64,000 bases of DNA from Hyphomicrobium sp. Its GTDB lineage: Bacteria; Pseudomonadota; Alphaproteobacteria; Rhizobiales; Hyphomicrobiaceae. Positions 58,030-61,259 of the stretch are shown one piece after another; position 1 is the first letter of the stretch, and each line of letters begins with the position of its first letter. The notes below the pieces were generated by a model that worked only from the letters and a program-made list of their open reading frames with translations, had not been told where the DNA came from and did not search any database. The DNA lies in contig NZ_RXIZ01000012.1 of assembly GCF_003987855.1 (NCBI RefSeq), forward strand, positions 88,164 to 152,163, written 5' to 3'. A program made the translations under genes and the position numbers.

Positions 58030-58061
58030 AAAAAAAGAGGGCCGGAATGTGCCCGGCCCTC
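58030..58061 (-). terminator. Rho-independent terminator of the triple-repeat exported protein gene
   Basis: On the minus strand GAGGGCCGG and CCGGCCCTC form a perfect 9-bp stem with a 7-base loop, followed at once by TTTTTTT. It lies 34 bases past the stop of the gene at 58096. This is a textbook intrinsic terminator and separates that gene from the desaturase operon. Confidence 0.88.
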
Positions 58062-58095
58062 CCGATTTCTCCCATGGCGACCCATCGCCGGAACC

Positions 58096-59463
58096 TTAGT
58101 GCTGGCCCCAGATCTCGACGATTGCCGAGCCCCTGCCCTTGGCCGAGGAGTCGAAGAACCGCGAGCGATACTTAGCTTCGATATGGTCGATGGCTTGACG
58201 GCGTCCGCCCCGGATATCGATCGGGCCGAACGTGCCACCGGCGTCGACACGCGTCCGGATCGGGACCGTCTCCTCCTCACCGTCGCGGTAGACCACCTTG
58301 ATCTCATTCAGGGTGATGGCGCGATCACGTACCGTCACGCGCAGCCGCCGAAAGCCACCCTCGTTGCTGGCGATCGGAATGATATCCTTGTCGAATCCGA
58401 TGAAGCCCGCGGTCTGCGCACCAAGCAGCACCCAGCCCTGGTTATACTTGCGGCCTTCGCCGTTGGGTCCAAGCCAGCCGGGAGCGTACTGCCCGAAAAG
58501 TTCGATACGCGCCTGACCGTTGAAGCTCGGCCGTGAGCGATAGACCAGCTGAATCTCCCGGATGAACCGGTCTCCCCTGAGGTCGATCCAGTTCGTACGC
58601 GAGTTCTTCGGTATGTCGGCGTTGATCGCCAGCGTATCGCTTTCGCCATTCGCGTAGACGATTTTCATCTCGTTGATGTGGATGTCGTTGTCCAACACAC
58701 GCAAGCGAATTCGCGCGAACTTGCCGATTTCCGCTCCGACGCGAATGACATCGCGGTCGGTCAGGAAGCCGACGTATTGGGCCCCAAACAGCACGTCGCC
58801 GCCCGGTGTTTGTTGACCGGGTGCCGTCGGTGTCGCCACCGGAACTGTAGGACGAACGGCGATGCCCGAGTTCCCGCCACGCGGCGGTCCGTCATAGCTT
58901 TCCGCCGGCCCGCTACGGCCTGCACGATCCATCGACCGGCCTTCCGGGTCCTGGATGCCGATGACCTGGAGCCGCCCGCGGCCGTAACCAGGTGCCTGCT
59001 CGATCACGATTTGATCGATGAACTTGCTGTCGAAAGTGGGATTGATCGGCCGGCTGCGCTCGCCCCAGTACATGTCGATCTGGCGATCCTCGGTCCACAC
59101 GCTGCCATCGCCGTAGACGATTTTCACGCGTCGGACATCGAACAGCTTGCCCATCGCATTCTTGATACGAATGCCTTTATAGGCGCCCTTGGCCTGCCGC
59201 ACGTCGATCGTATAGCGGTCGAGCGATAGGTCGACGTCCGTTTCGGTGATCAGAATGAGCTGATCTCCGTGACGATAATGATAGCGATGCCTGTGGCGGT
59301 GACGGTAGCGCCAGGATTGCGCCTCCGCGACCGATGCTTTGCTCGTCAAGCCGATCAGGCCGGCGGCGCCGACCGTGACTGCTGTACCGACGCCGCCCAA
59401 CTCTGCCGCGCCTGTGGCCAAAATGGCGCACAGCCCCAGTACCAGTCTGCGCAACATAAACAT
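58096..59463 (-). CDS. Exported protein with three DUF2541-like beta repeats
   Basis: 455 residues from ATG 59463 (M at 59457 equally good), which opens a long signal segment (LRRLVLGLCAILATGAAELG onward). Right after it comes an Arg/His-rich run, WRYRHRHRHRYHYRHGD. Three related beta modules follow. Each contains a V-x-V-x-Y-x-[DN]-G strand followed by an IDLRG or DIRGGR motif and I-x-x-I-x-x-x-Y-x-S: near KIVYGDGSVWTEDRQ, KIVYANGESDTLAINAD and KVVYRDGEEETVPIRTR. The modules resemble the DUF2541 family. Function is unknown; the His-rich strip could bind metal. It is monocistronic, with its own terminator. Confidence 0.78.
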   Translation of the reverse strand: MFMLRRLVLGLCAILATGAAELGGVGTAVTVGAAGLIGLTSKASVAEAQSWRYRHRHRHRYHYRHGDQLILITETDVDLSLDRYTIDVRQAKGAYKGIRIKNAMGKLFDVRRVKIVYGDGSVWTEDRQIDMYWGERSRPINPTFDSKFIDQIVIEQAPGYGRGRLQVIGIQDPEGRSMDRAGRSGPAESYDGPPRGGNSGIAVRPTVPVATPTAPGQQTPGGDVLFGAQYVGFLTDRDVIRVGAEIGKFARIRLRVLDNDIHINEMKIVYANGESDTLAINADIPKNSRTNWIDLRGDRFIREIQLVYRSRPSFNGQARIELFGQYAPGWLGPNGEGRKYNQGWVLLGAQTAGFIGFDKDIIPIASNEGGFRRLRVTVRDRAITLNEIKVVYRDGEEETVPIRTRVDAGGTFGPIDIRGGRRQAIDHIEAKYRSRFFDSSAKGRGSAIVEIWGQH

Positions 59464-59979
59464 AACCCCTCTGGTTACTAACGCCCGTGCCCCTAGCGCG
59501 CGCACTTTAGCGATAGCGACTCAAAACAGGGAGCGCTCTGACCGTTGTTAGACTGTTCAGCAAAAACGATGGTGTGAATCTGCAACACAAACTTCTGCCA
59601 GCTTCGCCCGCAGCTTGTGCGCGCTAAAGAAGAATCCGTGTTTGCTCGCTTATGCGCCGTTTGCACACGGATTTATTTGCTCTGTGCAAAGACGGGACTG
59701 CACCCCAATCCCACAAACAGGGCAGTGCTGGTTAGAGAACTTGCGGTTGCAAGATGTAATGACAATTCAGATGGCGCTCGACTAGCGAGGTTAGATGCGC
59801 AATCAACACACGACGATCCAGCTTAGCTTAGCAACGCGGAGAATCCTGGGGCAGCGCTAGTTGCTCGTAGGCATCTATGACATTGCACCGCGGCAACAGG
59901 GGAGGACGAAAGACTTAGCGGTGTCGCGAAAGCCCTGTCTGTGATGCCACCAACAGCTGTATAGTCAGTATAGATCTTG
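59464..59979. other. Long intergenic region upstream of the predicted sRNA
   Basis: About 516 bases, AT-richer than its surroundings and with frequent stops in all frames. It probably carries the promoter of the minus-strand exported-protein gene and, toward its end, that of the small RNA. -10-like hexamers TATAGT (59960-59965) and TATAGA (59969-59974) face right. No ORF here is convincing. Confidence 0.5.
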
Positions 59980-60051
59980 GCGTCGCTCCCACGTTCCCTG
60001 ACGTAGATCTACTTAAGCCCCGCAGTCTCCCCCGACTGCGGGATTTTTTTT
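59980..60051 (+). ncRNA. Predicted small RNA with C-rich loops
   Basis: A plus-strand terminator at 60019-60051 has no plus-strand gene to serve: the nearest is ppc, over 4 kb away and already terminated. TATAGA (59969-59974) would start a transcript near 59980, giving about 72 bases. It could fold into ACGT-TCCCTG-ACGT, GTAGATCTAC (palindrome) and the terminator hairpin with loop TCCCCC. Loops rich in UCCC that can pair with Shine-Dalgarno sequences are common in Hfq-dependent sRNAs of alphaproteobacteria. No known family is recognised. The start is uncertain, and a longer transcript is possible. Confidence 0.5.
60019..60051 (+). terminator. Strong orphan Rho-independent terminator
   Basis: CCCGCAGTC and GACTGCGGG make a perfect 9-bp stem with a 6-base loop, followed by ATTTTTTTT. 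The U-tract exists only on the plus strand, so the element ends a rightward transcript, not the minus-strand gene whose stop is at 60069. Confidence 0.85.
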
Positions 60052-60068
60052 GTTCGAAGCCGTGAACT

Positions 60069-61259
60069 TCAGGATTTGTCCCAAGCGGCAAAGCCTGCGG
60101 CTTTTGCCTCGTCCTCGCTGCAGAACCAACGGCCGCCCCGATCAGTCCTGACGCGCGCCTCCGCGTACGCCTCTGACCATGGCAGGGCGTAGATCTTCGC
60201 GGACGCACGCACCACGCCCTTGATCGGACAACCGTCCGGCGCATCGCGCTTGGCGGCTTCCCATGCTTGATCGCGCCACGCTTGCGGGCGAACGACTTCT
60301 CCCTGCCAGATGCCGCGCTTGGCTTCCTTTGCGGAGCTTTCCTCGCTGCTGAGCGAACCAAAGAACGACGTGTCCGTCGCGAACGCATAGCCGTCTCGGA
60401 CAAGACCAACTGCGATGTCGTTTGAGCCGTCGACAAGACAATGGGCAAGCGTGCGGCCATCGCTATCCTGGCCGGAGGCGGTGCAGGTCACCTGATGGCC
60501 GCGAACAACCTTGTTGAGCGCCGCGCGCGCCGCAAAGGCGCAGTTCCAGCGGCGGCCGTTGTCGCGATAGCAAGGCTGCGCGGCGGCAGGCGCCTCGATC
60601 CCTTCAAGCCGTACGAGCGTGCCGTCGACCCGCAAGACGTCGCCGGAAAGGGCGGCGGCAGCTCCGGAAATAACATTGGAAACGGTGACGCGATGCGATG
60701 AGCCACCGGCAGCGGCGTCGACTGGGGCGTCCGATCCGATGTTCAATACCGGCGCGCTGATCCCATCCGCGCTGCGCAGCATCGGACCGCCGATGTAGAT
60801 CAGTCCGAGAACGAGCGCCGCGGTGATGAGGTGATGCGCCTGCAGCGGCGACTTTTTCGCCAGCGCAGGCAAGATAGAGAGCTTTTCTCGAACGGCATCC
60901 GCCGCCACGCGCGTCATCGGGCCTAACGGAGCCAAGATTCCAAGCAGTGCATCCTTCACCACGTTCCAACCGAAACGCGCCCACCGCGCCAGCAGCCAAA
61001 ACACGGCGATAGCTACATCGGCGATCGTCCAGCCAATGACAGAGAGAGCGCGAAAGAAGCCGTTCTTCGCCGCCGCCGCCCCTGCAAGTCCCGCGTCGAC
61101 GCCGGCGTCAGCGACGTTCTTGACCTTCTCGATTGCAGCAACGCGCGCGTCCTCAATCCGGCGCTGCCGGTCGGCGCGGCGCACGAGAACCGTCGTCCGC
61201 ACATAGTCTTTCCACTCGAAGCCTTCGCTTCGCCTGCGCCACCCGAACATCAGGTGCAT
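60069..61259 (-). CDS. Membrane protein with SNase-like and C-terminal sunset domains
   Basis: 396 residues. An N-terminal amphipathic part is followed by two hydrophobic segments (VIGWTIADVAIAVFWLLARW and ITAALVLGLIYIGG). Next comes an SNase-like domain (about 190-320): GDVLRVDGTLVRLEGIEAPA, with active-site positions equivalent to D40 and E43 occupied by Glu and Ala, and DSDGRTLAHCLV retaining Arg. The last 55 residues form a sunset-type module, CPIKGVVRASAKIYALPWS and GGRWFCSEDEAKAAGFAAW, which often follows thermonuclease domains. It is 104 bases upstream-to-downstream from the kinase gene on the same strand, possibly one operon. Confidence 0.85.
   Translation of the reverse strand: MHLMFGWRRRSEGFEWKDYVRTTVLVRRADRQRRIEDARVAAIEKVKNVADAGVDAGLAGAAAAKNGFFRALSVIGWTIADVAIAVFWLLARWARFGWNVVKDALLGILAPLGPMTRVAADAVREKLSILPALAKKSPLQAHHLITAALVLGLIYIGGPMLRSADGISAPVLNIGSDAPVDAAAGGSSHRVTVSNVISGAAAALSGDVLRVDGTLVRLEGIEAPAAAQPCYRDNGRRWNCAFAARAALNKVVRGHQVTCTASGQDSDGRTLAHCLVDGSNDIAVGLVRDGYAFATDTSFFGSLSSEESSAKEAKRGIWQGEVVRPQAWRDQAWEAAKRDAPDGCPIKGVVRASAKIYALPWSEAYAEARVRTDRGGRWFCSEDEAKAAGFAAWDKS

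Follow-up and report, generated by a model that had tools for sequence, protein, structure and literature searches.

The window, the whole 64,000-nucleotide stretch of Hyphomicrobium DNA that was analysed, very likely carries a real, previously unlisted gene for an RNA of about 80 bases that, judging from sequence, is kept across most of the Hyphomicrobiaceae. The initial annotation had read this site as an sRNA gene, and the comparison with related genomes agrees with that reading: sequence and conservation point to a promoter, visible as a footprint, and an intrinsic terminator of the RNA's own in an intergenic region, to two conserved and covarying hairpins with conserved C-rich loops as an unpaired seed, and to no conserved open reading frame. 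We place the locus in a putative new RNA family that belongs to a known kind; no Rfam 15 model reaches its cut-off there. Furthermore, we consider it probable that the product is a free-standing, self-promoted and self-terminated sRNA that acts in trans, its C-rich loops repressing at ribosome-binding sites. The features on which this reading is built are as follows, with positions counted in the window.

59934-59939, plus strand: -35 box, CCTGTC, of the alphaproteobacterial CTTGAC type, with the C-T-T-G columns kept in the genus
59957-59962, plus strand: -10 box, CTGTAT, separated from the -35 box by 17 bases
about 59970-60050, plus strand: predicted sRNA of about 81 nt, placed from the promoter and terminator positions and from covariance-model matches
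59971-60011, plus strand: hairpin 1, from the MFE fold (z -4.2) and covariation
59986-59998, plus strand: loop 1, 13 bases, CUCCCACGUUCCC, unpaired in the MFE fold, candidate pairing seed
60019-60042, plus strand: hairpin 2, the intrinsic terminator stem-loop, with nine perfect pairs (60019-60027/60034-60042)
60028-60033, plus strand: terminator loop UCCCCC, kept across the genus copies, candidate pairing seed
60044-60051, plus strand: T8 tail of the terminator, read from the sequence
60069-61259, minus strand: gene for an SNase-domain protein (PF00565, 41.2 bits), the convergent neighbour, given for context only

The near-perfect rightward terminator that had drawn attention to the site, described as a 9-bp stem with eight Ts, is a perfect 9-bp stem followed by T8 at 60019-60051 on the plus strand. 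Seven of its nine pairs are G-C. As had been stated, it stands in a gap (approximately 59464-60068) whose flanking genes all run leftward, both neighbours being carried by the minus strand. A lax scan for the terminator consensus returned 8 sites in 8 kb against 8.0 in shuffles, and since this is no more than the shuffles yield, a loose match is uninformative. Under a strict criterion (a stem of at least 9 and at least 7 T of 8), which was chosen after the site had been seen, there were 2 sites in the whole 64 kb compared to 0.025 per shuffle over 40 shuffles. The other strict site, at 58037-58062 on the minus strand, is also of a strong intrinsic type and lies beyond the end of the DUF2541 gene.

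Upstream of the terminator, a predicted promoter, CCTGTC-N17-CTGTAT, occupies 59934-59962 and is footprinted in 19 genus loci. When these loci were aligned on the -10 box, its T-G-T-A columns were kept in 18, 16, 19 and 18 of 19; because the box is itself the anchor, this does not provide an independent test; independent evidence comes from the -35 box, where the C-T-T-G columns were kept in 16, 16, 17 and 16 of the 19 loci. The window's own -35 box reads C-C-T-G at these columns. With the -10 box anchored and the spacing fixed at N17, the mean match to CTTGAC/CTATAT was 8.05/12, as compared to 2.99 (maximum 3.95) for mononucleotide shuffles. Of the 22 columns displayed ahead of the -35 box, 16 carry less than 0.3 bit among the same 19 loci. 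For three of these loci (L028-L030), a shift of spacing or register by one or two bases improves the fit. Four spacer columns, C -10, A -8, C -7 and G -1 as numbered from the -10 box, are likewise conserved, each in 15-16 of the 19 loci; these conserved bases, at 59947-59956 in the window, could be a regulator site or could reflect simple relatedness.

From the positions of promoter and terminator, the predicted RNA measures about 81 nt, its 5′ end being inferred some 8 nt downstream of the -10 box and its 3′ end being placed at the T run. When 59960-60053 was folded, two hairpins were predicted with an energy of -30.7 kcal/mol (z = -4.2), and none of 200 shuffles was equally stable. Hairpin 1 consists of a lower stem of seven pairs (59971-59977/60005-60011) and an upper stem of six (59980-59985/59999-60004), separated by a two-base bulge. 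The -10-like box, the upstream hairpin and the palindrome GTAGATCTAC (60003-60012) listed in the initial annotation were all found in place, the palindrome falling almost wholly within the 3′ arm of hairpin 1 in the MFE fold. Its further remark that UCCC-type sequences occur in two loops applies to UCCCCC and to loop 1, each of which is unpaired in that fold.

Conservation was followed outward from the genus. With 59900-60060 as nucleotide query, 11 of the 22 Hyphomicrobium genomes gave a match; about 430 bases of the gap (59464-59899) lie upstream of this query. A covariance model built from these 11 sequences (R1) matched 19/22 genomes of the genus, 29/103 of the family and 8/397 of the order. 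The covariance search across Hyphomicrobium that had been proposed as a check thus recovered the locus in 19 of 22 genomes, and the loss of the stem-loops in relatives, named at the time as an outcome that would speak against the RNA, did not occur, as both hairpins are conserved and covary. For a second model (R2), 29 sequences were used and the lower stem was included; it had matches at E ≤ 0.01 in 84 of the 103 family genomes and at E ≤ 1e-5 in 80 of them, and indicated a single copy in the window's genome. Within the order R2 matched 91 of 297 genomes at E ≤ 0.01. Among the 24 order matches that were inspected, L056, L058, L061 and L063 are without the loops and L046, L047, L052 and L054 are of the ar14 type; we therefore confine our claim to the family. 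In a class-wide sample at E ≤ 1e-5, R2 matched 3 of 288 genomes besides the window's own. Since the genome searches scored the top candidates per genome (in the R2 family search, for example, 39 of usually several hundred or more), misses are possible. Two genomes, G015 and G017, gave no match by R1 or R2.

Several weak or doubtful members are kept in these counts (L038, L055, L186, L194 and L195). L038 is without the GCGCC stem. L055, from a small genome of the same genus (G007), is a weak match (E 1.9e-6) that has C-rich loops and no SNase match found, and is possibly a diverged or a different RNA. When 20 lower-scoring family matches were inspected singly, UCCC preceded the terminator in 20/20 and GUCCC in 14/20; the membership of L186, L194 and L195 is doubtful. 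In addition, a 24-base terminator pattern matched 15 stretches in 84,980 species genomes, nine in records named Hyphomicrobium and three in records named "Proteobacteria bacterium". Two more are actinobacterial records with neither neighbour gene present and are probably chance matches. A contig labelled as a Pirellulales MAG (L089, JAICUM010000413.1) carries the pattern together with both Hyphomicrobium neighbour genes and is probably misbinned.

Support for the structure comes from the wider relatives, since RNAalifold on the first 11 close sequences recovered both stems with a covariation term of +0.04 and 2/15 pairs changed on both sides, which is no covariation gain. When 38 sequences, 36 of them distinct, were aligned by fitting to R2, 88.8% of cells were paired and 15/22 pairs were changed on both sides, with a covariation score of 0.314 versus 0.153 for shuffled and at most 0.071 for slid alignments; relatedness inflates such scores, and the slid controls are equally affected. 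The terminator stem had 100% of its cells paired, and 5/9 of its pairs showed changes on both sides among the 36 distinct sequences. Two single internal-loop pairs of this alignment (36% and 35% paired) were unsupported. Because the R2-fitted alignment leans toward the structure, a MAFFT alignment of 18 sequences was counted too, in which 97.2% of cells were paired and the covariation score was 0.277 versus 0.185 shuffled and at most 0.069 slid. Further pair types on the MAFFT alignment did not rise above shuffles, 110 of 500 being equally high.

The loops are also conserved. All but one of the 19 genus copies have UCUCCCCCG as their terminator loop, and the exception reads UCUUCCCCCG, with one inserted U. 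The region of loop 1 carries UCCC in 16 of 19 copies, with three being without it. The low-complexity C runs differ in length between genera. A conserved open reading frame was looked for in the 19 genus copies and none was found: a closed frame of at least 6 codons occurs in only three, of which L016 and L017 share four residues and the window's own, a 9-codon TTG frame, differs. In the window, no plus-strand ORF of at least 60 aa starts within about 390 bases downstream of the sRNA.

At all 19 genus loci the SNase gene follows the sRNA directly, in tail-to-tail orientation, with 21-98 bases between the end of the SNase match and the end of the sRNA match. It is also present at 10 of 17 distinct loci from other genera and at 9 of 20 lower-scoring family loci, some of the stretches being truncated. 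On the other flank the neighbour is less constant: a DUF2541-domain gene on the minus strand, ending at 58096 in the window, has a strong match at 13 of 19 genus loci and a weak one at one more; one of the other five is a short contig. As the RNA is present in some genera with no nuclease match nearby, we read the SNase gene as context and not as an obligate partner.

The constant SNase neighbour within the genus nevertheless suggests an alternative, a cis-acting partner of the nuclease gene: the RNA or its terminator would overlap the SNase mRNA at its 3′ end, and antisense pairing and colliding polymerases would then control the stability of that mRNA or block read-through. The short tail-to-tail distance, and the SNase gene at other-genus and lower-scoring loci, speak for it, but seven of the 17 other-genus loci (L035, L038-L041, L044 and L068) show no SNase match within the 1-1.5 kb fetched. 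Moreover, a simple antisense overlap needs no conserved promoter, covarying stems or conserved C-rich loops. The stem in the window is without a T run on its minus-strand side and is therefore no intrinsic terminator of the nuclease transcript. We consider a cis-acting role distinctly improbable. The 9-codon TTG frame of the window could likewise be taken for a tiny leader ORF, or the terminator and hairpin could be conserved without any functional RNA; the promoter footprint, the conserved loops and the rarity of closed frames among the genus copies argue against both, and we find this reading hardly credible.

Two further alternatives accept the RNA and differ as to its action or its ancestry. 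It could bind protein or serve as a decoy instead of pairing with mRNA, titrating a C-binding protein or mimicking the anti-Shine-Dalgarno sequence of 16S rRNA, and in keeping with this, conservation among the unpaired parts is highest in the short C run of the terminator loop, and the length of the C runs varies across genera. We know of no C-binding protein partner for this lineage, which counts against such a role. In addition, the comparable C-rich motifs of AbcR1/2 are reported to act by pairing (PMC5461406), and we judge a decoy very improbable. The RNA could also be a lineage-specific, distant derivative of ar14 that has lost the 5′ hairpin and changed its loops, a true homologue and not an analogue. 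This reading concerns ancestry and is compatible with a trans-acting sRNA. It gains from the scores described below, ar14 ranking first among Rfam families by bit score at the window, and from the ar14-type loci that R2 picks up in another family of the order. However, every family score falls under the ar14 cut-off, the number of hairpins and the loop motif are unlike, and some score is obtained for any RNA that combines C-rich loops with a GC-rich terminator (as with ncS54, anti-hemB and ErsA), so that descent from ar14 appears unlikely, if worth keeping in mind. A trans-acting sRNA of a family of its own is the reading that we carry forward.

Known families were represented by the Rfam 15 models with their gathering thresholds (58.8 bits for ar14 and 40 bits for ar15), over which the 64 kb holds one tRNA only. 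The suggestion that the RNA was unannotated, made with an Rfam scan as its check, is borne out in that no family reaches its cut-off, the nearest being ar14 (RF02344) with 23.7 vs 58.8 bits. Seven matches below threshold fall at the locus (ar14, ncS54, anti-hemB, ErsA, trpB, NsiR1 and Hrs10); they look like resemblances between C-rich terminators and were not taken as homology. The models were also run on 15 of 29 and 20 of 24 loci of relatives, and the best ar14 score in relatives was 38.7 bits (L031). Over its cut-off ar14 was found in 0 of 103 family genomes, with up to 30 candidates scored per genome; at E ≤ 1 it gave sub-threshold matches in 45 of 103, none of them in the window's own genome. 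As a positive control, true ar14 was recovered at 75-78 bits in L046, L047 and L052 of the order. R2 in its turn matches ar14-type loci in one further family within the order, with E from 2.7e-10 to 8.7e-7, and three of these pass the ar14 cut-off.

The likeness to ar14/NfeR1, a family that presumably includes SmelA075, lies in hairpins ended by a terminator, in C-rich loops resembling an anti-Shine-Dalgarno sequence, and in an alphaproteobacterial promoter of its own with a 17-base spacer. The NfeR1 promoter is given as CTTAGAC-N17-CTATAT (PMC10746234). Members of ar14 are described with three hairpins and CCUCCUCCC in each, and NfeR1 with a length of 123 nt (PMC10746234; PMC3927594), whereas the RNA described here would have two hairpins, about 81 nt and the loops CUCCCACGUUCCC and UCCCCC, with loops of the same class in relatives. 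Membership in ar14 was rejected on the score, on the two hairpins in place of three and on loops other than CCUCCUCCC.

For AbcR1/AbcR2 (ar15, RF02345), no match was found at the locus at E ≤ 10, and 0 of 103 family genomes exceeded the cut-off, with sub-threshold matches in 12; the positive control gave ar15 over the cut-off in 3 of 101 order genomes. Loop 1 of the window holds both motifs described for Brucella AbcR, M1 CUCCCA and M2 GUUCCC (PMC5461406), side by side. Their places in AbcR are hairpin 1 and the linker that follows, whereas in the window both are within one loop. Each occurs in 1 of 19 genus copies, that of the window alone, and GUCCCA occurs in 10 of 19, so the motif pair may be a coincidence. 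With motifs misplaced, each exact in a single genus copy, and no match at the locus at that E value, membership in ar15/AbcR was also rejected.

Two other RNAs share parts of this design. RSs0680a/CcsR of Rhodobacter (RF02791), for which we take RS0680a to be the CcsR RNA, has the same short form with two stem-loops and differs in its loop motif, CCUCCUCCC; CcsR1 gave no match at the locus at E ≤ 10. An anti-SD motif is reported in each of the two stem-loops of RS0680a (PMC3927594). PmaR of Agrobacterium shares a C-rich single-stranded loop, described as required for target regulation (PMC6234868), but forms one long spoon-like hairpin, regulates mostly positively and has sites mostly away from ribosome-binding sites. 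Relatives under a SmelC291 model have been reported in Hyphomicrobiaceae (PMC3927594).

In our proposed mechanism, an alphaproteobacterial sigma-70-type promoter of the gene's own, CCTGTC-N17-CTGTAT, would drive transcription of the RNA from the plus strand, and the gene's own intrinsic terminator would stop it. The modelled product of about 81 nt would then expose the C-rich loops CUCCCACGUUCCC and UCCCCC on its two hairpins. By analogy, these loops most likely pair with purine-rich stretches (GGGGGAG / GGGA) at the ribosome-binding sites of several mRNAs, and the pairing would lower translation in the anti-Shine-Dalgarno mode of ar14 and the AbcR sRNAs. In alphaproteobacterial sRNAs of that type, the motifs are described as pairing partners of ribosome-binding sites or of other mRNA regions (PMC3927594; PMC10746234; PMC5461406). 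A short, intergenic, self-promoted and self-terminated RNA with C-rich loops on variable stems follows the same design, and this leads us to propose the same mode, in which other genes are probably turned down as the loops pair with their ribosome-binding sites. Transcription itself, pairing in trans, repression and the involvement of any chaperone are steps that we infer.

A search for possible targets is weakly suggestive. The pattern CGGGGGAGA-N2-12-ATG, complementary to the terminator loop, occurs at 81 sites in 22 genomes (2 being the sRNA locus itself, one site counted twice) versus 26 for the reversed pattern, a difference weakened by the enrichment expected of any Shine-Dalgarno-like purine run before ATG. 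Five orthologous site pairs recur between genomes, a number without a control for recurrence. One member of each was compared with Pfam, which gave one ABC-transporter ATPase, one outer-membrane beta-barrel and three without a match; these recurrent sites are weakly suggested as sRNA targets. One site in the window's own genome lies ahead of a gene for an outer-membrane efflux protein. As for a chaperone, Hfq is encoded in the genome. NfeR1, founder of the nearest known family, is reported to be Hfq-independent (PMC10746234). In 7 of 19 genus copies the T run after the terminator stem is 5 or shorter, and in three of these it is 3 or shorter, so Hfq dependence is not assumed.

A full-text literature search for Hyphomicrobium and sRNA returned nothing on sRNAs of the genus by title or abstract. 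The family Hyphomicrobiaceae includes methylotrophs and denitrifiers. The present study supplies a covariance model and predicted boundaries for the new RNA family, and a lineage without a recognisable ar14 or AbcR offers a test ground for the shared logic of C-rich loops. A bolder and rather doubtful extension is that the Hyphomicrobiaceae use this RNA as their own broad post-transcriptional regulator, with the terminator as its main seed and the C-run loop reading G-rich ribosome-binding sites. Apart from the best matches of their genomes to the new family, L069-L071 and L073-L076, from other genera of the family, are candidates for terminator-ended RNAs with C-rich loops that score 31-48 bits with ar14, and the Hyphomicrobiaceae may own several sRNAs of this kind.
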